A stretch of DNA of 64,000 nt from Pseudomonadota bacterium. Lineage in GTDB: Bacteria > Desulfobacterota > Desulfobulbia > Desulfobulbales > Desulfocapsaceae. How positions within the stretch are numbered: the first letter of the stretch is position 1; the number at the start of each line of letters is the position of its first letter. The DNA is taken from positions 62,001 through 126,000 of the forward strand of contig JAHJKP010000026.1 in NCBI GenBank assembly GCA_018821985.1. The letters are read 5' to 3'. Position numbers and translations under genes: made by a program. The notes beneath the pieces are model-generated. The model saw only the letters and a list, made by a program, of their open reading frames with translations. It was not told the origin of the DNA and did not search any database. Positions 21,195 to 32,292 of the stretch are shown piece after piece.

Positions 21195-22439
21195 TCAATC
21201 ATTATAGCGCTGCATTACAATGACACCGTTGGTGCCGCCAAATCCAAAGGAATTGGAAACAGCCGCCCGGATCTCCATCTTTCTGGCCTGATTCGGCACA
21301 TAATCAAGATCACATTCAGGACTTGCTTCCTTTAAATTCATAGTCGGCGGTGCGATCTGTCCCCGAATACTGAGAGCCGTAAAGGCCGCTTCAATCCCGC
21401 CGGCCGCTCCCAGCATATGGCCGGTCATCGATTTTGTAGAACTGATGGCAAGCTTTCTGGCATGTTCGCCAAATACCGTTTTAATGGCCTGGGTTTCACA
21501 ACGATCATTTAACGGGGTGGAAGTCCCATGGGCATTAATGTAATCGATATCTTCAGGAGACAGACCCGCATCCTGAAGGGCCATGCGCATACAGCGCGCC
21601 GCACCTTCACCGTTTTCAGGTGGAGCGGCGATATGATAAGCGTCACTGCTGGCTCCATAGCCGGTTATTTCCGCATAGATCGTAGCACCTCGTTTCAGGG
21701 CATGCTCCAATTCTTCAATAATGAGCATCCCTGAACCCTCGGACATGACAAAGCCATCCCGATCTTTATCAAAAGGCCGGGATGCCTGTTCTGGTGCATC
21801 ATTACGCGTGGAAAGCGCTTTCATGGCACTGAACCCGCCAACGCCAAGGGGACAGATTACAGACTCAGTACCACCAGTGATCACCATATCGCAGCTGCCA
21901 TACATTATAGAGCGATATGCCTCACCCACCGCATGAGTCCCTGCTGCACAGGCAGTTGAAAGGGCAAGGTTAGGACCTTTCGCTCCCAGTTGCATGGAGA
22001 TATGGCCAGAAGGCATATTAGGAATAGCCATGGGAATAAAAAAAGGGGAAATCCTCTTTGAACCACGCTCAAGACAGTTTAAATGATTCTGCTCAATGGT
22101 CGGCAGCCCCCCCATGCCACAGCCGGTAATAACCCCTACCCGCTGACAATTGGCCTCATCGATAATTGCGCCACTGTCTTCAAACGCCATCCGGGCAGCA
22201 GCAATAGCATACTGCACAAATAGGTCAAGATGCTTGGCAAGTTTTTTCTCAATAAAATCTTCTACCTGAAAGTCCTTTACCTCTGCTGCAATCTTTACCG
22301 CATAATCACTGGTATCAAAGCGGGTGATAAGGCCGACACCACTGGTTCCGGCACAGATATTCCCCCAGGTTTTTTGTGTCCCAGTGCCAAGCGGTGTTAC
22401 CAGTCCAACTCCTGTAACCACAACTCTACGCTTTGCCAT
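21195..22439 (-). CDS. fabF: Beta-ketoacyl-ACP synthase II
   Basis: Condenses malonyl-ACP with growing acyl-ACP, about 414 residues. The catalytic Cys164 is in STACAAGTHA, with His in NAHGTSTPLND and Lys/His in STKSMTGHMLGAAG. The start is the ATG at 22439 (MAKRRVVVTGVG), preceded by GAGGGGAG; an in-frame upstream ATG would add 19 atypical residues. It follows acpP after 81 bp in the fab operon. Confidence 0.96.
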   Translation of the reverse strand: MAKRRVVVTGVGLVTPLGTGTQKTWGNICAGTSGVGLITRFDTSDYAVKIAAEVKDFQVEDFIEKKLAKHLDLFVQYAIAAARMAFEDSGAIIDEANCQRVGVITGCGMGGLPTIEQNHLNCLERGSKRISPFFIPMAIPNMPSGHISMQLGAKGPNLALSTACAAGTHAVGEAYRSIMYGSCDMVITGGTESVICPLGVGGFSAMKALSTRNDAPEQASRPFDKDRDGFVMSEGSGMLIIEELEHALKRGATIYAEITGYGASSDAYHIAAPPENGEGAARCMRMALQDAGLSPEDIDYINAHGTSTPLNDRCETQAIKTVFGEHARKLAISSTKSMTGHMLGAAGGIEAAFTALSIRGQIAPPTMNLKEASPECDLDYVPNQARKMEIRAAVSNSFGFGGTNGVIVMQRYND

Positions 22440-22520
22440 GTAAACTCCCCTCAGGCCATCAGATTCGTTTCTCAAAAACACAAGAGGCTCTCGCATTCAA
22501 CGAAAACCCCATTTTTCAAA

Positions 22521-22751
22521 TTATTTGAGCTTATTGATATAATCAATGGCATTTTGAACTGTATTGATTTTCTCGGCATCTTCATCGGGAATCTCAACAT
22601 CAAAAGCCTCTTCCATGGCCATAATCAACTCCACAAGATCCAGAGAATCAGCGCCAAGATCATCCACAAATGAGGCGTTGGGAACTACTTTATCTTTTTC
22701 TACACTCAACTGCTCAACAATAATATCGACCATCTGTTGATCTATCGCCAT
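22521..22751 (-). CDS. acpP: Acyl carrier protein
   Basis: A 76-residue acidic carrier of fatty acyl chains. The phosphopantetheine site is Ser36 in [29 protein letters not shown] precedes the ATG. It sits between fabG and fabF as in most bacteria. Confidence 0.97.
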
Positions 22752-22846: not shown

Positions 22847-23590
22847 CTACATATACATACCACCATTAACATGCAATACCTGTCCTGTAACATAACGACC
22901 ATCATTGCCAAGCAAATAAGCAACTGCTCCGGCAACGTCTTCAGGTGTGCCCAATGCAGCCAAGGGAATCTCCATTTTGATCTTTTCCTGAATTTCCTCA
23001 GACAAAGAACTGGTCATGTCTGTCACAATATAACCAGGAGCAACCCCATTCACTGTAATATTCCTCGAGGCAAACTCCCTGGCCATTGACTTGGTCAGCC
23101 CCACAAGTCCTGCCTTAGCTGCAGCATAATTTATCTGGCCGGCATTTCCAGAAAAGCCAATAACTGAAGTAATATTGATAATCCGACCCCATTTATTCTT
23201 CATCATTGACCGAGATGCGGCCTTGGCACAGAGGAAGGCACCTTTCAAGTTAGTATCAAGCACCAGATCCCAATCAGACTCTTTCATTCTGGCCATCAAT
23301 CCATCCCTGGTGATCCCCGCGTTATTAACAAGGACATCAAGAGATCCAGCCTCTGTAACTATCTGCTTGAGGGCGTCTTGTACCTGTTCACTCTCTGCTA
23401 CATTAAAACATATTATATCCGCGCGTCCACCTGCGTCCTGAATCATCTGTTTGGTTTCTTCGGCCGCTGTGGGGTTCGACACATAATTAATGTACACATG
23501 GGCGCCCAGAGCACTGACACGTTGGCATATGGCACGCCCTATACCACGACTTCCACCAGTCACTAGTGCTGTTTTTCCTGTAAGGCTCAT
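22847..23590 (-). CDS. fabG: 3-oxoacyl-ACP reductase
   Basis: An NADPH-dependent short-chain dehydrogenase that reduces 3-oxoacyl-ACP, 247 residues. The nucleotide motif is TGGSRGIG (residues 11-18), then NNAG, and the catalytic Ser142, Tyr155 and Lys159 are present (NYAAAKAG). The ATG overlaps the etfA stop by 4 bp (ATGA), so translation is coupled to the ETF genes. It is the second reductive component of this operon besides the acyl-CoA dehydrogenase/ETF set. Confidence 0.95.
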
Positions 23591-24780
23591 GACTTACGAC
23601 GCTCCTCAATTTGCGTAAGAAGTTTGGGTACGATCTCAAAGAGATCTCCTACCAGACCAAAATCAGCCACATCAAAGATCGGGGCATCCTTGTCCCTATT
23701 AATGGCAACAATGGTCTCTGCCGACTGCATGCCAGCCACGTGCTGCACTGCCCCGGATATGCCACAAGCAATGTACAGCTTCGGCGCCACAGTCTTCCCG
23801 GTCTGCCCAACCTGATGAGGATAACCGATCCAGCCGGCATCTACAACTGCCCGGGTTGCGGCAATCGCGCCACCTAGTGACTCAGCAAGCTCTCGCATCA
23901 GAGTAAAGCCCTTGGCACTGTCAAGTCCACGTCCCCCTGCAACCAGGATATCAGATTCCTGGATATTCACATTATCCTCTTCCGAAACCACGGATTCAAT
24001 GACCCGTACCCGGGTTGCAAGTTGCTCAGGCATTGGTTTCACTTCAACGATGTTTCCCTGTCGTTCACCATCAAAGGTAAGCGCCTGCATAACCTTAGGG
24101 CGCACTGTGGACATCTGAGGCCTTGAGTTCGGACAGACAATAGTCGCCATGATATTGCCGCCAAAGGCAGGTCGTGTCTGCAGCAGGGCGCCATCCTCCT
24201 CGCGGATGGCAAGCTGGGTACAATCAGCAGTAAGGCCAGCACCGAGTGTTGTGGCAACACCCGGAATAAAGGAACGGCCAATAGCAGTCGCCCCGGCCAG
24301 AACAATCTCCGGTTTATTTTGCTGGATAAGAGCGGTCATGATCGCGCCATATGCCTCATCGGTAAAATGGGCAAGCGCCGGATCATCAATCCGGTACACC
24401 GTATCGGCTCCATGAGCTATAAGTTGCCGTGCCGTTTCCCCGGTTTCAGAGCCAATCAGGACGGCGGACAAAGGTACATTACGGGTATCGGCCAATCTGC
24501 GGCCTATGCCCAACAGTTCCAGGGATACTGGAGCCAAGGCCCCTCGTCTGAATTCACAATAGACCCAGACCCCTGACCAGCTGGCAAGGTCCAGGGGGGC
24601 GCTTTTTTCCGCCCCTTCAATCTTCAAGGCACCAGGATCACATGTTTCAACGCACGTTCCGCAGAGAGTACACCCGTCACCCACCACGGCACAGCCATCA
24701 ACAATGGTAATGGCACCAAAGGGACAGGCGCTCTCACAATTACCGCAACCGATACACACGTCCTTATCTATAATCAACAT
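23587..24780 (-). CDS. etfA: Electron transfer flavoprotein alpha subunit with N-terminal ferredoxin domain
   Basis: A 397-residue protein. Residues 1-60 form a 2[4Fe-4S] ferredoxin domain ([12 protein letters not shown] and [14 protein letters not shown]). The ETF alpha domain follows, with the FAD-binding C-terminal part starting near VAGGRGLDS and including GQTGKTV and [13 protein letters not shown] alpha proteins with such a domain are known from CarE and LctC. It pairs with etfB just upstream and would take electrons from, or deliver them to, the adjacent acyl-CoA dehydrogenase. The direction, and whether it bifurcates, is undetermined. Confidence 0.93.
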
Positions 24781-24800: not shown

Positions 24801-25580
24801 TTATAGATAAGGTTGCAAACTATCAACAAGCTGTCCGATCTGCTCATCAAGGCTTCCAGTAAAAACGGCCCGCTGACACCTTGCCTCCGGAGGAAAGACC
24901 TTTACAACCTGAGTTGGAGAACCAGGAAGACCAATACAGGCAGGATCAGCACCAATATCGGCCGCCGTCAACTTTCTGATCTCCAGCTTTTTGGCACGCA
25001 TTTTCCCTTTTAGAGACGGAACCCGGGGCTCGTTAATATCCTTAACCATCGTCAGTAAGGCCGGGTAATCAAGCGCCAGGACATCATAACCATCATCCAT
25101 CATCCGTTCCAGAACCAGCCCGCTATCCGTTGCTTGGCGCACCTTCTGCACACAGGTCACATACGGGATCTGCAGACGCATGGCAAGTCCTGGACCGACC
25201 TGAGCCGTATCACCATCAATTGCCTGTTTTCCACATAAAAGAAGATCAAAGGCGCCAATAACATTGACCGCCTTGGCCAGGGTATAGGAAGTGGCCCAGG
25301 TATCGGCACCGGCAAAGGCCCGATCCGAGACCAGCACTGCATGATCAGCTCCACAGGAGATAGCCTGCCTGAGGACTTCTTCCGCCTGAGGCGGCCCCAT
25401 ACTCAGAACCGTAACCTCACCACCCAAAAGCTCTTTTAACCTCACAGCCTCTTCCACCGCATGCTGATCATAAGGATTCATGATCGACTGCACACCTTCG
25501 CGGGCCAGGGTATTCGTTTTGGGATCCAGACGAACGTCCTTGGCATCAGGCACCTGTTTAATACAGACAATGATCTTCAT
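24801..25580 (-). CDS. etfB: Electron transfer flavoprotein beta subunit
   Basis: About 259 residues. The N terminus MKIIVCIKQVPDAKDVRLD and the CGKQAIDGDTAQVGPGLA segment are ETF beta hallmarks. GTG at 25589 is an alternative start three codons upstream. It heads the etfB-etfA pair and follows the acyl-CoA dehydrogenase gene after about 20 bp. The second nucleotide bound (AMP or FAD) is the point that would separate a simple from a bifurcating ETF and cannot be decided by eye. Confidence 0.93.
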   Translation of the reverse strand: MKIIVCIKQVPDAKDVRLDPKTNTLAREGVQSIMNPYDQHAVEEAVRLKELLGGEVTVLSMGPPQAEEVLRQAISCGADHAVLVSDRAFAGADTWATSYTLAKAVNVIGAFDLLLCGKQAIDGDTAQVGPGLAMRLQIPYVTCVQKVRQATDSGLVLERMMDDGYDVLALDYPALLTMVKDINEPRVPSLKGKMRAKKLEIRKLTAADIGADPACIGLPGSPTQVVKVFPPEARCQRAVFTGSLDEQIGQLVDSLQPYL

Positions 25581-25601
25581 ACCATCCACTTACCCAGCCG
25601 T

Positions 25602-26756
25602 TCAGGCACGGGTATACTCCTTGTTCAGTTCCTGTCCAACCACATTACGCTGAATCTGATTGGTACCTTCATATATCTGCAGGATTTTGGCATCCCGCAT
25701 CATCTTCTCCACAGGATATTCACGCATATAGCCATAGCCACCCATCACCTGCACGGCGTCAGTGGCGACCTTCATGGCCATATCAGTGGCAAAGACCTTG
25801 CACATGGATGAGACCTTGGACATATTATTGGGATGAGCATCGATATGTCTGGCCGCACCATAGACCAGGGCCCGCGCCGCCTCAAGTTGAATAGCCATAT
25901 CGGCAAGCATATGCTGAACAGCCTGGAAGGCCATGATGGGCTTGCCGAACTGGACACGCTGTTTGGCATAACTGGCAGCCTCATCGAGGGCCCCCTGCGC
26001 CAACCCCAAACCCAACGCGGCAATCCCTGGCCTGGAAGAATCAAGGGTCTTCATGACGGTTATAAAGCCGGTTCCTTTGCGACCGATCAATCGATCTTTG
26101 GGGATTCGACAATCTTTAAAAATAAGTTCGGTAGTGGATGATGCCCTGATCCCCATCTTCTTCTCTTTCGGGCCACAACTAAAACCTGGATCACCCTCTT
26201 CAACCACCAACATGGATGCGCCACGCGCTCCCTTGCTCCGGTCGGTGATGGCCACCACCGTATAAATTTGAGCCTCACCGCCATTGGTGATCCATTGTTT
26301 GGTGCCGTTTAAGACCCACTCATCACCATCCAGTACCGCAGTTGTCTGAATGCCTGAGGCATCAGAGCCGGCATTGGCCTCAGTCAAACCAAAGGCAGCA
26401 AATTTCTTTCCGCTAGCCACATCCGGAAGATACTTTTCACGCATCTCTTGAGATCCGGCAATAAGAATAGGATAGATGCCAAGCGAACTTGCAGCAAAGG
26501 CGGTACCCACACCAATACAGCCACGCCCCAACTGTTCCAGGGCCAGAACAATATCAAGACAACCTCCGCCGAAGCCCCCGTATTCTTCAGGGATAGGGAC
26601 CCCAAAGAGGTCTGCCCGAGCCATCTCACCAAGTATTGCCCGCGGGAATTCATCCTTCTCATCAAGCTCAGCCCGCTGCGGAATAATTCGCTCATCCGTA
26701 ATCTGACGAGCTATCTCCACAATCATCTCTTGTTCTTCAGATAAAAAATAATCCAA
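25602..26756 (-). CDS. Acyl-CoA dehydrogenase family flavoprotein
   Basis: A 384-residue FAD enzyme of the short/medium-chain acyl-CoA dehydrogenase family. AFGLTEANAGSDASG and WITNGG bind FAD and substrate. The catalytic base is Glu363 in QIYEGTNQIQRN. It is placed between fabH and etfB in a fatty-acid biosynthesis operon, where fabD or fabI might be expected. It could run as an enoyl-thioester reductase with ETF or handle CoA thioesters for recycling or priming; butyryl-CoA dehydrogenase is the nearest general label. Confidence 0.9.
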   Translation of the reverse strand: MDYFLSEEQEMIVEIARQITDERIIPQRAELDEKDEFPRAILGEMARADLFGVPIPEEYGGFGGGCLDIVLALEQLGRGCIGVGTAFAASSLGIYPILIAGSQEMREKYLPDVASGKKFAAFGLTEANAGSDASGIQTTAVLDGDEWVLNGTKQWITNGGEAQIYTVVAITDRSKGARGASMLVVEEGDPGFSCGPKEKKMGIRASSTTELIFKDCRIPKDRLIGRKGTGFITVMKTLDSSRPGIAALGLGLAQGALDEAASYAKQRVQFGKPIMAFQAVQHMLADMAIQLEAARALVYGAARHIDAHPNNMSKVSSMCKVFATDMAMKVATDAVQVMGGYGYMREYPVEKMMRDAKILQIYEGTNQIQRNVVGQELNKEYTRA

Positions 26757-26866: not shown

Positions 26867-27841
26867 TTACCACCTGACCAGAGTTGCTCCCCAGGTAAAA
26901 CCACCACCAAAAGAACAAAACAAAATGATATCACCGGCTTGCACCATAGACGCCCGATTTGCTTCATCAAGGGCGATGGGGATGGAAGCTGCTGACGTAT
27001 TACCATATTTTTGCACATTTATGAAAACTTTTTCTACACCGATTCCTAGACGTTCAACCAACTTATTCAAGATACGGATATTAGCCTGATGCGGAATGAC
27101 CAAGCTGATGGCATCAAGGGCTATCTGTTCTTGGTCTAAAAGCGCCAACACAGCCTCTTCCATGGCCTTGACCGCATACTTAAAGACTTCACGGCCCTCC
27201 ATAACGATATGAGCACCGGAACTTGCGGACTGCAACAGTTCCGGATTACAACTGGCAGCAGTGTGCATATGGAGCAAGCTCCAAAGCTTTCCATCCGAAA
27301 ACAACTTGGCCCCGATCACCCCGCGACTCCCCTCGACATGCCCAAGGACAACGGCTCCAGCACCATCACCAAAAAGGATACAGGTATTTCGATCCTCCCA
27401 GTTCGTACGACTGGAAAGGGTTTCTGCTCCGATCACTAAAATTTTCTTACTCGGATCGGCCTGGATATATTTATCAGCCAGATCTAGAGCATAAACAAAT
27501 CCTGAACAGGCAGCGTTGATATCGAAAGCAAAAGCCCTGCCAGCGCCAATCTCTTTCTGCACGAAACAGGCACAAGAAGGCATAAGCATGTGAGAAGAAA
27601 TGGTCGCAACAATGACAAGATCAATCTCAGTGGCAGAAAGCTCAGCCATCTGCAAGGCCTTTACCGCAGCTCTGGCAGCCAATAGATAGGTTTCATCACC
27701 CTTACCACCAATACAACGCGTACTGATCCCGGTTCTGGTCCTTATCCACTCATCACTGGTATCAACAATCTTCTCCAAGTCCTGATTGCTGACAACCCGC
27801 TCAGGCAGATATGACCCTGTCCCAAGAATCGCCGTGCCCAT
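26867..27841 (-). CDS. fabH: Beta-ketoacyl-ACP synthase III
   Basis: Starts fatty-acid synthesis by condensing an acyl-CoA primer with malonyl-ACP, 324 residues. The catalytic triad is Cys112 (AACSGFVYALD), His251 (IPHQANIRIL) and Asn281 (YGNTSAASIPIA), with GGGFTWGA at the C terminus. Its start shares one base with the plsX stop. The next gene, the acyl-CoA dehydrogenase, begins 110 bp downstream. Confidence 0.96.
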   Translation of the reverse strand: MGTAILGTGSYLPERVVSNQDLEKIVDTSDEWIRTRTGISTRCIGGKGDETYLLAARAAVKALQMAELSATEIDLVIVATISSHMLMPSCACFVQKEIGAGRAFAFDINAACSGFVYALDLADKYIQADPSKKILVIGAETLSSRTNWEDRNTCILFGDGAGAVVLGHVEGSRGVIGAKLFSDGKLWSLLHMHTAASCNPELLQSASSGAHIVMEGREVFKYAVKAMEEAVLALLDQEQIALDAISLVIPHQANIRILNKLVERLGIGVEKVFINVQKYGNTSAASIPIALDEANRASMVQAGDIILFCSFGGGFTWGATLVRW

Positions 27842-28863
27842 CAGACCACAGCCTCTTCATCCTGAGCGATTTCAGCAAGACCTGCTGCGATTCTCTGATT
27901 GACTTGCTTTTCTACCATCTTGGCAGCTTCCAGGATTGCATTCTTAATAGCCTCAGCGCTGGATTTACCATGACAGATAATGCCAATACCATTGATACCC
28001 AAAAGGGGCGCGCCACCATATTCTGCATAATCGACACGCTTGGCAAAGGAACGAAAGGCGGGACGGGCAAGAAAATATCCGATTTTAGCAGCAGTTGACT
28101 TCATGATTTCGTCTTTCAACATCTGCATAGCCGCCCCAGCCAGACCTTCGCTGAGCTTCAGGCAGATATTGCCGACAAAACCATCACAGACAATAACATC
28201 AACATTGCCTTGAAACACATCTCGCCCCTCGACATTTCCCACAAAATTCAGGGAACTGGCAGCAAGCCGGGCGTAGGTCTCTTTAACAAGGGTATTCCCC
28301 TTCCCAACTTCTTCGCCAATGCTGAGGATACCAATACGGGGACGATCTATATCGAATATATGGGAAAAGGCAGAGGCCATGACCGCAAATTGAAAAAGAT
28401 GCTGGGGGCGACAATCAACATTGGCCCCAACATCCATCATGACGACCGGCTTTTTCAAGGTGGGAAAGATGCTGGCTATTCCTGGCCGGGACACATGCTC
28501 CATCCGGCCAAGCTTTCGTACAGCGGCAGCCATTGTTGCCCCGGAATTACCCGCACTGACAGCTGCATCAGCCTGCCCTTGACGCACAAGATCGAAGGCA
28601 ACCAGAACCGAGGCGTCTTTTTTCTTGCGGATAGCGTCGACAGGCGACTCACTCATCTCAACCACCTCAGCGGCATGGACAATCTGGATACGTTGCAACA
28701 ATCCAGTATCGCCAGACCTCAATCGGTCAAGATGAGCCTGCAGAACCTGCCGGTTACCAACCAGGGTTACTTGCAGATCGGTCTGTTTTACGGCAAGCAA
28801 TGCCCCGTCAATCAGTTCCTCGGGGCCATGGTCTCCGCCCATGGCATCCAGGGCAATCCGCAC
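27841..28863 (-). CDS. plsX: Phosphate acyltransferase PlsX
   Basis: Makes acyl-phosphate from acyl-ACP for phospholipid synthesis, 340 residues. The N-terminal RIALDAMGGDHGP motif is diagnostic, with VSAGNSGATMAA and DVGANVDCRPQHL following. The start is GTG (28863), 8 bp after rpmF. The order rpmF-plsX-fabH is widespread and links ribosome and lipid synthesis. Confidence 0.95.
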   Translation of the reverse strand: MRIALDAMGGDHGPEELIDGALLAVKQTDLQVTLVGNRQVLQAHLDRLRSGDTGLLQRIQIVHAAEVVEMSESPVDAIRKKKDASVLVAFDLVRQGQADAAVSAGNSGATMAAAVRKLGRMEHVSRPGIASIFPTLKKPVVMMDVGANVDCRPQHLFQFAVMASAFSHIFDIDRPRIGILSIGEEVGKGNTLVKETYARLAASSLNFVGNVEGRDVFQGNVDVIVCDGFVGNICLKLSEGLAGAAMQMLKDEIMKSTAAKIGYFLARPAFRSFAKRVDYAEYGGAPLLGINGIGIICHGKSSAEAIKNAILEAAKMVEKQVNQRIAAGLAEIAQDEEAVV

Positions 28864-28871
28864 AATTGGGC

Positions 28872-29060
28872 CTATTCTATATCAATATCAAGACTAACAA
28901 CCGTACGACCCTTGTATTTTCCACAACTTGGGCACAGACGATGTGGCTGTTTTGGCGCACCGCACTCGGCACAGGTAGACATACCTGGCGCACTCAGTGC
29001 ATCATGCGACCTTCTTTTACGGGTACGAGAGTGAGAATGTCGTCTCTTGGGTAATGCCAT
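28872..29060 (-). CDS. rpmF: 50S ribosomal protein L32
   Basis: A 62-residue zinc-ribbon ribosomal protein. It begins MALPKRRHSHSRTRKRRSHD and contains CAECGAPKQPHRLCPSCGKYKGR, the four-Cys form. GGAGGATATT precedes the ATG at 29060; a longer reading upstream has no support. It leads the fab operon. The usual upstream yceD (DUF177) gene is not present. Confidence 0.96.
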   Translation of the reverse strand: MALPKRRHSHSRTRKRRSHDALSAPGMSTCAECGAPKQPHRLCPSCGKYKGRTVVSLDIDIE

Positions 29061-29408
29061 AATATCCTCCAGTAAAAAACAAAATATGTTTTTCAGGGTA
29101 AATTGAGATAAAGTTACACATATTGTAACAAAGATAAGCTGCTGAATTACTACATAAAACCACAACGCTCCAAGATTGAAAGTGAATATTACAGCTAATA
29201 ACTTTTATTCACATCAGCTTTTTTAATCCAAGAAATTTCAACGAAGAACGCAGATAAAGGACATAAAAATAAACAATTTTTTCAAGAATGGCCAGAAAAA
29301 AAAGCAGGCCCAAGCACTTTGTCAGAGAAGAGCTATCAACGCCATGACAAATCTACAGTTCCCAACAGGCAAGAAGTTAAACAAAATCTGCCTTGCAAAA
29401 AAACCTCT
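29061..29408. other. Intergenic region upstream of rpmF
   Basis: The 348 bp contain the dyad GTTACA (29113-29118)/TGTAAC (29124-29129) about 55 bp upstream of the rpmF start, a possible operator for the fab operon. No strong promoter hexamers or T-tailed hairpin for the opposite-side operon were found. No coding sequence is supported. Confidence 0.45.
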
Positions 29409-29885
29409 CTACAGCACATGCGCCAGGCGTTCAGCTGTTTTCTCCAGCCGCAAACTGCTGATCAACAACAAGTGCTTCAAAAGCTTGATAACCAGTTGCG
29501 AGTCAGTGCGTTCCAGAGCCTCCAGCTCATGACACCCTAAACGAAAAAGATGCGATTGTTCAATGGCTCTGACGCTTACACCATGGATATGACCTGACAG
29601 GAGCCCGGCCTCGCCCACGATGGCCCCTGGTTCCAAGATAGCTACAACCTGCATCTTGCGATGAAACCCTGTTTTTTTTTGGACCGACAACCGCCCCTGA
29701 GCCAGAAAAAAGACCTCATCGGCAGGGTCGCCAACCTCAAAGAGAAACGTATCCTGCTCAAAAGTCCTTTCGGTTACCACAGACGCAAACCGCTTCTGCT
29801 CTGCTGCACCAAGAAAAGCAAAAACATCCGCACAACTTTTCTGTTCTGACCCTGCAAGATGCCCTGAGAGAAGTGGATTATTCAA
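29409..29885 (-). CDS. Cyclic-nucleotide-binding-domain protein without DNA-binding domain
   Basis: A 158-residue protein with one cNMP-binding beta-barrel (about 25-130: FLFEVGDPADEVFFLAQGRLSV, GAIVGEAGLLSG, RAIEQSHLFRL). There is no C-terminal helix-turn-helix, so it is not a Crp-type regulator but may sense a ligand or act with a partner. The gene overlaps mlaC by 8 bp, ending an ileS-lspA-fabD-mlaA-mlaC unit. Whether a nucleotide binds is uncertain, because the canonical phosphate-binding Arg is not evident. Confidence 0.8.
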   Translation of the reverse strand: MNNPLLSGHLAGSEQKSCADVFAFLGAAEQKRFASVVTERTFEQDTFLFEVGDPADEVFFLAQGRLSVQKKTGFHRKMQVVAILEPGAIVGEAGLLSGHIHGVSVRAIEQSHLFRLGCHELEALERTDSQLVIKLLKHLLLISSLRLEKTAERLAHVL

Positions 29886-30477
29886 AAGTGCTGTTTTTTT
29901 CCTCCAGAAGCTTTACCAGCCCGTCAAACTTGTCGCGACGAAGGATTGACTTGAACTGTTCCATATAGTTGCGAACCAGGCTCACCCCTTCGATATTGAT
30001 ATCGTAGACCACCCACCGATCTTCTTTTTTAATCATGACATAATCGACAGGGATCAACTGGCCATTATTTTCAATTTGAGTCGAGACAATCGCCCTGTCT
30101 TCCTTCTGCCGTTCTCCAATATACTGAATCTCCTGGCCTGAATAACTCTCAAATTTACCGATATAGGCATTTTCAAGCAGTTTAGTAAACAGCTCCTGGA
30201 AATGGTCCTGTTTTTCTGGCGGCAAACCCTTCCATTCCCTCCCAAGTACCCGCTTGGACATCTCACGAAAATCAAAGCCCTGGGTCACATGGCCCATAAT
30301 CTTGGCACGTCGCTCTATCTTATGCTCTTCCCCCTTCAATCCAGAGTCAAGCAGGATGTCTATCAACGCTTTTAATGTGGGTTTTAACTGCTCTGTGGGC
30401 CCAGAGATCGCCAGGGCAGAGGAGCCAGACCAGAGAGAGCAACAAAACAGTATCAACAACGCGTAAATGAATTTCAT
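29878..30477 (-). CDS. mlaC: MlaC-family phospholipid-transport periplasmic protein
   Basis: About 199 residues with a signal peptide (MKFIYALLILFCC...SALA). It belongs to the MlaC/Ttg2D family that shuttles phospholipids across the periplasm between MlaA and the MlaFEDB transporter. FDFREMSKRVLGREWKGL and YDINIEGVSLVRNYM are family-typical. An in-frame upstream start would add 11 residues before the signal peptide and is not favoured. MlaFED genes are not here. Confidence 0.88.
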   Translation of the reverse strand: MKFIYALLILFCCSLWSGSSALAISGPTEQLKPTLKALIDILLDSGLKGEEHKIERRAKIMGHVTQGFDFREMSKRVLGREWKGLPPEKQDHFQELFTKLLENAYIGKFESYSGQEIQYIGERQKEDRAIVSTQIENNGQLIPVDYVMIKKEDRWVVYDINIEGVSLVRNYMEQFKSILRRDKFDGLVKLLEEKNSTFE

Positions 30478-30529
30478 AATTTTTATCTTCTTTAGATTTC
30501 CAGGTACCATTTTTCCTCACAACTCCTGA

Positions 30530-31315
30530 TCAGAACTCATTGATTATATCATTTTGCACTTCCTTATCCAACACCTTGTTCCGCCTATACTCAAGATACA
30601 CCTGCCGCATGGAGATATAAGGATCCAGAGAGTATCTTTTCATATCTTCATACAGATCCGGATTCAGAGACAACATATTCACCTTGTCAGCAGAATAATA
30701 GGCAGCCCCATCCAGATAAGTAGTGCCGACATAAGTGGCCGGATGGACGACAACGTTGCCGGCAAAACCAAGCGTATCCCGTACAGTCATAGGCCCAATA
30801 AGCGGCAGACAGAGATACAGCCCCTCACCCAGCCCCCAGACCCCCAAAGTCTGACCAAAATCTTCAGGCTTGGGTTCAAGTCCAAATGAACGCAAGGCCG
30901 GATCACCTAGGCCCAAAACCCCCACAGTAGAGTTAATCAAAAACCGTGAAAGATCAATAGACGCATCTGCTAACTTGCCCTGTAACAGATTATTCACCAC
31001 ATGCACCGGAGCCGCAACGTTATCAAAAAAATTACCGAAACACTGTCGAAAATCGATGGGCACCACTGCCATATAAACATTATTGACCGGTTTCAAGATC
31101 CAAAAATAGAGTTTGTCATTCACCTGAAAGAAAATCCTATTCATGGACTCCAAAGGGTCAGAGGACTCCTCCTCTTCAAAGAATGCGTCAATTTCTTCAT
31201 TCTCATTATCAATCGATAGACCAACACCTTCTGCGTCCTCGGCCAGAGCACCCCGCACAGGGGCAACCATAAGTACCAGAAACAAGAATATAATGAACAT
31301 TTTTTTTTGCTTCAT
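30530..31315 (-). CDS. mlaA: MlaA/VacJ-family outer-membrane lipid asymmetry protein
   Basis: About 261 residues. DPLESMNRIFFQVND and NNLLQGKLADASIDLSRF with STVGVLGLGDPA define MlaA. It would remove phospholipids from the outer leaflet of the outer membrane and hand them to MlaC, encoded next. The N-terminal signal sequence ends APVRGALAED without the lipobox Cys usual for this family. The first ATG (31327) and the one at 31315 are both possible; GGATGGA fits the latter. Confidence 0.9.
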   Translation of the reverse strand: MKQKKMFIIFLFLVLMVAPVRGALAEDAEGVGLSIDNENEEIDAFFEEEESSDPLESMNRIFFQVNDKLYFWILKPVNNVYMAVVPIDFRQCFGNFFDNVAAPVHVVNNLLQGKLADASIDLSRFLINSTVGVLGLGDPALRSFGLEPKPEDFGQTLGVWGLGEGLYLCLPLIGPMTVRDTLGFAGNVVVHPATYVGTTYLDGAAYYSADKVNMLSLNPDLYEDMKRYSLDPYISMRQVYLEYRRNKVLDKEVQNDIINEF

Positions 31316-31341
31316 AGTGTGATCCATCCTTGCTGACAAAA

Positions 31342-32292
31342 TTAATTCATACCTATCTGTTCAAGACATTGGGCCAGACTGTCAGGGCTATCAAGCTGCA
31401 GAGCCTGATAGACATAGCCTTTAGGGGCAATTTTGCGCATCATCCCTTTCAACACGGTCTTGGGACCCACCTCGATAAAGGTATCGACTCCCTGTTCGAT
31501 CATGGCCTGGATGAGCTCGAGCCAGCGAACTCTGGAGGCAATCTGTCTGGCCATTATTTCTCGAATCATAGTGGGTTCCTCTTCCGTTGCCGCCAGGATA
31601 TTAAAATAAACAGGAATCTGCGGACGATTAAATTCCACCTCTGCCATAAATGTGGCAAAATCAGGAACGGCATCCGCCACCAGTGGACTATGATTGGCCA
31701 CACTGACTGCCAAAGGAATAATTCTTGCGCCCCGCTCCGCGGCAATGGCCCCAACAGCATCCAGTGCCGCCACCTCCCCTGAGATCACGATCTGCTGCTC
31801 GGTGTTGTGATTGGCGACGGTGGCCACCCCAGCGCCCACACACTGGGCAATAATCCCCTCAATCTCCACGACATTCAAGCCAAGAACGGCCCACATGGCA
31901 CCTGGATGTTTCTGCCCCTCTCGCTCCATCAGCATGCCACGCCTGGCCACAAGACGCATTGTATCCTCGACACTAAGCACACCGGCAGCACAGAGGGCTG
32001 AATACTCCCCCAGACTGTGCCCGGCAAAACAACTGGCAACAACCTTCTCTCCCCAGGCATTTTTCAGCGCCTGCCAGCAGATAAGATTGGTCACGGTGAT
32101 GGCTGGCTGCAGATGTACGGCCCTGGTCAATTCCTCCATGGGCCCTTCGATGCAGAGCTGGCGCAAAGGAAAATCACACACGCCCTCGGCCTGTTCCATG
32201 ATGGCCGCACAATCGGGCTCTGCCTCAATAAACTCACGTCCCATACCCAGATACTGGGACCCCTGGCCAGGAAAAAGAACTGCTATTTTCAT
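31342..32292 (-). CDS. fabD: Malonyl-CoA:ACP transacylase
   Basis: Loads malonyl groups onto ACP, 316 residues. The nucleophile Ser is in AGHSLGEYSAL, the partner His in SVANHSPLV, and FPGQGSQYLGMG is the N-terminal oxyanion motif. It is separated from the main fab operon and lies between lspA and mlaA, about 5 kb downstream of the usual position beside fabH. Confidence 0.95.
   Translation of the reverse strand: MKIAVLFPGQGSQYLGMGREFIEAEPDCAAIMEQAEGVCDFPLRQLCIEGPMEELTRAVHLQPAITVTNLICWQALKNAWGEKVVASCFAGHSLGEYSALCAAGVLSVEDTMRLVARRGMLMEREGQKHPGAMWAVLGLNVVEIEGIIAQCVGAGVATVANHNTEQQIVISGEVAALDAVGAIAAERGARIIPLAVSVANHSPLVADAVPDFATFMAEVEFNRPQIPVYFNILAATEEEPTMIREIMARQIASRVRWLELIQAMIEQGVDTFIEVGPKTVLKGMMRKIAPKGYVYQALQLDSPDSLAQCLEQIGMN

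Follow-up and report, generated by a model that had tools for sequence, protein, structure and literature searches.

A fatty-acid synthesis operon containing an acyl-CoA dehydrogenase and a bifurcating-type electron transfer flavoprotein, a probable enoyl-thioester reductase of anaerobic bacteria

In bacterial fatty-acid synthesis every elongation cycle closes with enoyl reduction, a known drug target for which few enzymes are known. In the window analysed here (a stretch of 64,000 nucleotides from contig JAHJKP010000026.1 of a Desulfocapsaceae genome assembly), genes for an acyl-CoA dehydrogenase (acd) and an electron transfer flavoprotein (ETF; etfB and etfA) lie between fabH and fabG, as the coordinates of the ORFs bear out, and no ORF of the cluster was seen to encode an enoyl-ACP reductase (ENR) of the FabI, FabK, FabL or FabV type. 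The original prediction, made from the sequence of this locus, was that the dehydrogenase runs in reverse and reduces enoyl thioesters with electrons from a ferredoxin-bearing ETF. The question raised is whether such a system supplies the last step of the cycle.

The genes are arranged on the minus strand in the order rpmF, plsX, fabH, acd, etfB, etfA, fabG, acpP, fabF, rpiB, glyA and nrdR (Table 1), where the names rpmF and plsX, and those of rpiB, glyA and nrdR downstream of fabF, are presumed from sequence and gene order. The rpmF gene adjoins the cluster in relatives too. The start codon of acd is a TTG at 26756, preceded by AGGAGGAG, and the intergenic gaps are 110 bases between fabH and acd, 12 between acd and etfB and 20 between etfB and etfA, while the ATGA overlap ascribed to etfA and fabG is present in the sequence. 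The fabD gene, described as having moved away, is located upstream, and its product scored slightly below the cut-off of TIGR00128 (259.5 bits, cut-off 260.9). Between fabD and rpmF (29878–31339) are two genes that we take from their sequence to resemble those for an MlaC-type protein and a VacJ/MlaA lipoprotein. Neither promoter-like sites (9 versus 10.6 in shuffles) nor terminator-like sites (8 versus 9.1 in shuffles) were in excess in the region.

Table 1. Genes of the fatty-acid synthesis cluster and the displaced fabD, with positions in the window
Gene	Position	Strand	Evidence and remarks
rpmF (name presumed)	28872..29165	-	ORF; first gene of fab cluster; later start codon possible
plsX (name presumed)	27841..28863	-	ORF; neighbour in relatives too
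fabH, beta-ketoacyl-ACP synthase III	26867..27841	-	TIGR00747, 398 bits (cut-off 292.1)
acd, acyl-CoA dehydrogenase family	25602..26756	-	PF00441, PF02770 and PF02771 over cut-off; Glu363
etfB, bifurcating type (putative)	24801..25589	-	best PDB match CarD 6fah_B, 246.2 bits
etfA, N-terminal ferredoxin domain	23587..24780	-	best PDB match CarE 6fah_A, 428.8 bits
fabG	22847..23590	-	TIGR01830, 326.9 bits (cut-off 297.75); ATGA overlap with etfA
acpP, acyl carrier protein	22521..22751	-	TIGR00517, 106.3 bits (cut-off 70.45)
fabF, beta-ketoacyl-ACP synthase II	21195..22496	-	TIGR03150, 658.7 bits (cut-off 493.75)
fabD, malonyl-CoA:ACP transacylase, displaced upstream	31342..32292	-	PF00698 over cut-off

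Judged by its sequence, the acd product (384 aa) clearly belongs to the acyl-CoA dehydrogenase (ACAD) family, with the N-terminal, middle and C-terminal domains all recognized. The catalytic Glu363 is intact, as had been claimed; it is located in the C-terminal domain within QIYEGTNQIQR and aligns with the Glu of Bcd. The best PDB match of Acd was Bcd of Clostridioides difficile (5ol2_C, 414.7 bits), with CarC matched less well (321 bits), and the closest relative among the best 80 matches was 92 % identical and came from a MAG labelled Desulfobulbaceae. EtfB contains RAFAG at 90, DGDTAQVGP at 125 and SPT at 224, while EtfA contains Arg203 and, twice in its N-terminal ferredoxin domain, CxxCxxCxxxC, so that the ETF is ferredoxin-bearing (4Fe-4S) as predicted. 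Features reported for bifurcating ETFs are DGDTAQVGP, RXFXG, SPT and an EtfA Arg to N5 of the b-FAD (PMC9232219), and all four are found in EtfB and EtfA of this locus. The match of EtfB to CarD (Table 1) compares with only 79–105 bits for canonical ETFs. Of 41 operon ETF sets, 39 have DGDTAQVGP, 37 have RXFXG, 33 have the Arg motif and 16 have SPT, and in 35 the first 65 residues of EtfA contain at least eight Cys. Best matches and motifs together suggest that EtfBA is a bifurcating-type ETF, for which NADH-dependent ferredoxin reduction is a predicted activity. Of the NCBIfam models, AcrC of clostridial acryloyl-CoA reductase (NF042972) was the top model for acd (428.4 bits) and AcrCBA was the top model for etfA (356.1 bits) and the second for etfB (227.8 bits, after NF040731 with 298.7 bits), but acd, etfA and etfB are all far below the curated values of 640, 600 and 475.

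The locus resembles two known systems. Bcd-EtfAB of C. difficile (5ol2), which reduces crotonyl-CoA with NADH while ferredoxin is reduced (PMC5691135), has the b-FAD motif and the EtfA Arg that are conserved here (PMC5691135, PMC9232219), but its EtfA is described as without the ferredoxin domain that is present in this EtfA (PMC9232219), and the genes studied here differ in being part of a type II fatty-acid synthesis (FAS II) operon. CarCDE of Acetobacterium woodii (6fah) provides the best matches of EtfA and EtfB, and CarE carries a ferredoxin domain with two clusters (PMC9232219), but its genomic setting is unlike the FAS II operon. By analogy with Bcd-EtfAB, Acd would be expected to run as a reductase. 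In the proposed mechanism, the b-FAD of EtfB would accept electrons from NADH and pass them via the shuttle FAD of EtfA to the FAD of Acd, which would then convert trans-2-enoyl-ACP (or -CoA) into an acyl thioester; as with Bcd-EtfAB and CarCDE, ferredoxin may receive half of the electrons by way of the ferredoxin domain of EtfA. We consider it likely that Acd-EtfBA serves these anaerobes as a FAS II enoyl-thioester reductase, probably driven by NADH and possibly coupled to ferredoxin, and that in the source genome a FabL would be a second such enzyme beside it.

This FabL was found when ENRs were sought across the whole source genome (3.34 Mb, 57 contigs, 99.85 % complete). Extended from the cluster to the genome, the absence of ENRs does not hold: an SDR on another contig (C18) scored 354.7 bits on the FabL equivalog NF005975, above the curated cut-off of 328, and its top PDB match was FabL of Bacillus subtilis (3oic, 280.6 bits; next 157). 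The original prediction had named a standard ENR, present and essential, as evidence against a reverse-running dehydrogenase, and a FabL over its curated cut-off comes close to that. It could mean that FabL is the housekeeping ENR here and that Acd-ETF has a side job, such as the recycling of unsaturated acyl thioesters or beta-oxidation under shared regulation, a reading that we regard as unlikely for reasons that emerge from the distribution of these genes in other genomes. A second SDR, on contig C57, matched FabI models first, with 158.1 bits against a cut-off of 370 (and below cut-off on each of the other 11 FabI models listed), and is a divergent FabI-like protein. The FabV catalytic domain PF12241 had no match in the source genome, and a match to PF12242, under cut-off and in an SDR region, was discarded. 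A FabK-like protein (contig C7, 81943–82854) scored 175.2 bits on TIGR03151, with a cut-off of 453.1. Its cysteines (C-x3-C-x3-C-x4-C) resemble those of FabX of Helicobacter pylori (C-x3-C-x3-C-x11-C), and its top solved relative was a FabK (135 bits), with FabX at 119 bits. On its four-Cys pattern it was set aside as a hidden ENR and taken as putatively FabX-like, a pattern match falling short of proof.

To place the locus among its relatives, a scan of genome contigs was used, and the best 80 Acd relatives of a longer list were classed as fab-linked where at least two fab genes were present on the same strand within 6 kb. Fab linkage was detected for 54 of these 80, under labels including Desulfobulbaceae, Syntrophaceae, Desulfobaccaceae, Nitrospirota, Margulisiibacteriota, Edwardsiibacteriota and Omnitrophota among others; at five loci (L070, L073, L074, L076 and L086) acd is 3' of fabF in the same operon rather than 5' of fabD or fabG. 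A quick tree of 154 Acd rows had linked and unlinked loci partly interleaved, with 15 label changes versus 30.1 in shuffles, some of the 'unlinked' labels being contig ends. The genomes of 50 of the 80 loci (40 picked by eye as fab-linked and 10 unlinked) comprised a first set, of which the two-gene rule keeps 38 of the 40 eye-picked loci and leaves L067 and L080 out of the linked count. The Acd clade of the window consisted of 28 tree rows and holds ten of the 38 linked loci, eight titled Desulfobulbaceae, Desulfobulbus, Desulfogranum or Desulfocapsa and two (L015 and L032) without a family name. FabL over cut-off was present in ten of the 50 genomes, and these were exactly the ten of this clade, a pattern that favours a housekeeping role for FabL in the group.

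The other ENRs were sparse in the first set, with FabI at 239.7 bits or more in three of the 50 genomes (G045 and the fab-linked G030, with 239.7 bits, and G032, with 254.4 bits), FabV in one (G013) and FabK-like proteins of at least 230 bits in seven. Among the fab-linked genomes outside the clade of the window, for which, as for the whole first set, completeness is not given, 19 of 28 were without a counted ENR. The same was true of eight of the ten unlinked genomes, so fab linkage does not mark ENR absence in this set. Divergent FabL-like SDRs were considered as overlooked ENRs and rejected for seven of the eight sub-cut-off best FabL matches that were scanned, six fitting FabG models best and one (L104, in G013) a glucose 1-dehydrogenase model with FabL second. 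The eighth, L107 of a Nitrospirae MAG (G015), matched no model but FabL at E≤1e-45, with a score of 206.6 bits (cut-off 328), and G015, counted among the 19, may therefore have a divergent FabL. Of 20 FabK-family proteins inspected, mostly weak matches, 19 (that of the source genome included) had the FabX-like four-Cys pattern, spaced C-x3-C-x3-C in 17 and C-x2-C-x3-C in two, and only L149 was without it; L161 matched FabX with 252 bits versus 128 bits for FabK.

A second set consisted of 148 genomes drawn evenly from the same phylum, with 90 % completeness requested and most of them drafts. Acd was found at E≤1e-130 in 77 of the 148, with a single match in each. FabI of at least 245 bits was detected in 19, and none of these 19 has Acd (Fisher, 2e-7); counted by family labels, which guards only partly against relatedness, 31 families with Acd and 13 with FabI out of about 70 did not overlap (P=3e-4). 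FabK-like proteins at E≤1e-65 were present in 57 genomes, 21 of them Acd-positive (Fisher, 0.004). FabL was found in eight genomes, four of the seven of the same order as the source (itself included) and four of family f16, at a search threshold of E≤1e-75 that would miss divergent forms such as L107. All eight are Acd-positive, which indicates that FabL does not exclude Acd, and the four same-order genomes are a further point in favour of FabL as the housekeeping enzyme. The single strong FabV match (in G169) was also in an Acd-positive genome, five weak matches of 21.9–24 bits having been dropped. No FabI, FabL, FabV or strong FabK was found in 47 of the 77 Acd genomes versus 21 of the 71 Acd-negative genomes. 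The latter proportion implies a sizeable false-negative floor of missed or unknown ENRs in the absence calls, which cover FabI, FabK, FabL and FabV; FabL2, FabI2 and FabMG are further ENR types described in PMC9260719. Eleven genomes including the source, five of them among the 47, have a divergent FabI-like protein of 150–190 bits that was not counted as FabI. Absences are weaker in genomes with many candidates, where just 13–16 were scored (G056 and G066, both with Acd, are examples from the FabI search); in the FabL search of G128, 16 of 22 were scored. In G061 (one contig) and G098, both of the same order as the source, the four ENR searches scored all candidates and found no FabL, strong FabI, FabV or strong FabK; yet the two genomes keep the operon, which argues against a side job beside FabL. 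A loose first look, short of a full ACAD census, found a single ACAD candidate in eight Acd genomes without a counted ENR. This fits a role in synthesis and argues against one in beta-oxidation.

The surroundings of Acd were then compared in the 76 census genomes with Acd other than the source. By the two-gene rule 69 of the 76 loci were located among fab genes, 41 with etfB and etfA and 28 without, which indicates that the gene arrangement is not due to chance. Three of the seven remaining loci end at contig ends but have rpmF upstream (G192, G069 and G090), and the other four, from one family (f27), have acd-etfB-etfA away from fab genes and an Acd 53–55 % identical to that of the window. 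As a side observation, each of the four f27 genomes (L297–L300) is a single contig of 1.6–1.8 Mb in which no counted ENR was found, and in L297 and L300 etfA encodes 335 aa, shorter than the product of the window by about a ferredoxin domain.

Across genomes, the position of Acd corresponds to a slot, rpmF-plsX-(fabH)-[X]-fabD, and the 1.5 kb flanks of ENR genes were examined for it at 30 FabK-like loci (one per genome, the best match; 12 in genomes with Acd and 18 in others), eight FabI loci and eight FabL loci. FabK was located between rpmF or plsX and fabD at four of the 18 Acd-negative FabK-like loci (G058, G078, G095 and G097), and FabI between fabH and fabD at one of the eight FabI loci (G089, Acd-negative); this is the position that Acd occupies in Acd genomes. 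The other 14 FabK-like and seven FabI loci were outside the slot, one (G133) with a fabG-like neighbour. No fab neighbours were found within 1.5 kb at any of the 12 FabK-like loci of Acd genomes or at any of the eight FabL loci, where the SDR itself accounts for the fabG matches. The five FabK and FabI cases are most simply read as non-orthologous displacement at one slot by enzymes that differ in protein family and would perform the same step. That the Acd slot is filled by FabK or FabI elsewhere, while FabL adjoins no other fab genes, counts against FabL as the housekeeping enzyme with Acd-ETF in a side job.

The same observations bear on a further explanation, that Acd-EtfAB makes primers: the acyl-CoA with which FabH starts chains would come from its reduction of crotonyl-CoA or a similarly short enoyl-CoA. 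The position of acd immediately 3' of fabH and the nearest solved relative of Acd, the C. difficile Bcd, agree with it, but it predicts neither the exclusion of FabI nor the slot common to FabK and FabI, and many clusters are without fabH beside acd by tblastn, which makes primer supply improbable. It is very doubtful that Acd dehydrogenates acyl-ACP on the way to unsaturated fatty acids, since, although the ACAD family usually runs as a dehydrogenase, the FabX-like candidate of the source genome is already present and the exclusion with FabI is left unexplained. A precedent in its favour is the ACP-bound backtracking dehydrogenase FabX described in H. pylori (PMC8626469).

The role of Acd-EtfBA as an enoyl-thioester reductase has as its direct basis gene content, synteny, motifs, the exclusion with strong FabI and the slot common to FabK and FabI; for Acd we infer a reductive direction, an ACP-bound substrate (or one carried by CoA) and bifurcation. 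The idea of a dehydrogenase running in reverse thus draws support from the FabI exclusion, the shared slot, the many Acd genomes in which no other ENR was found and the bifurcating-type ETF, and is weakened by the FabL of the source genome. More tentatively, it is possible that an ACAD with an electron-bifurcating ETF is a further kind of enoyl-ACP reductase, replacing FabI, FabK, FabL or FabV in many anaerobes of several phyla. If so, fatty-acid elongation itself would yield reduced ferredoxin and conserve energy, and membrane-lipid synthesis could become energy-conserving in organisms living on little energy; such a reductase would also supply a step that many anaerobic genomes seem to lack and account for the recurrent operon structure. 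The main text of a 2022 review of ENRs (PMC9260719) has no occurrence of 'acyl-CoA dehydrogenase', and no proposal of an ACAD as a FAS II ENR was found in titles and abstract openings of the open-licence literature. In Desulfovibrio vulgaris, DVU2064 is reported as an essential fatty-acid synthesis enzyme that might supply the enoyl-ACP reductase (PMC10102598).

Two other observations concern the proteins set aside in the source genome. The source genome has a FabX-like four-Cys protein, and so have nine of the ten first-set members of the Acd clade of the window (L009, L152, L154–L160 and L162 in all), G007 being without a match at E≤1e-30; by their sequence they are candidates for anaerobic unsaturated fatty-acid synthesis. 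The divergent FabI-like SDR was rejected as the housekeeping ENR, the copies of relatives being near a KAS III-like gene, and may still have an ENR role. This arrangement was seen in six relatives (G003, G005, G008, G009, G010 and G061), while no KAS III-like neighbours were seen in the source genome or G002. The KAS III-like genes of G003 and G061, the two scanned, matched NF006720, which we take to be the OleA group, and in G003 FabG-like and FabZ-like genes are located ahead of the divergent FabI. Some of the loci of these six relatives (L128, L131, L132, L134, L136 and L301) also have genes resembling fabZ and fabG, or one for a hydrolase similar to haloalkane dehalogenase. The group is possibly a hydrocarbon cluster, which would agree with the polyunsaturated hydrocarbons reported in a study of the fab clusters of Desulfotalea psychrophila; that study placed FabI in an unrelated cluster and does not contain the phrase 'electron transfer' (PMC2649909).
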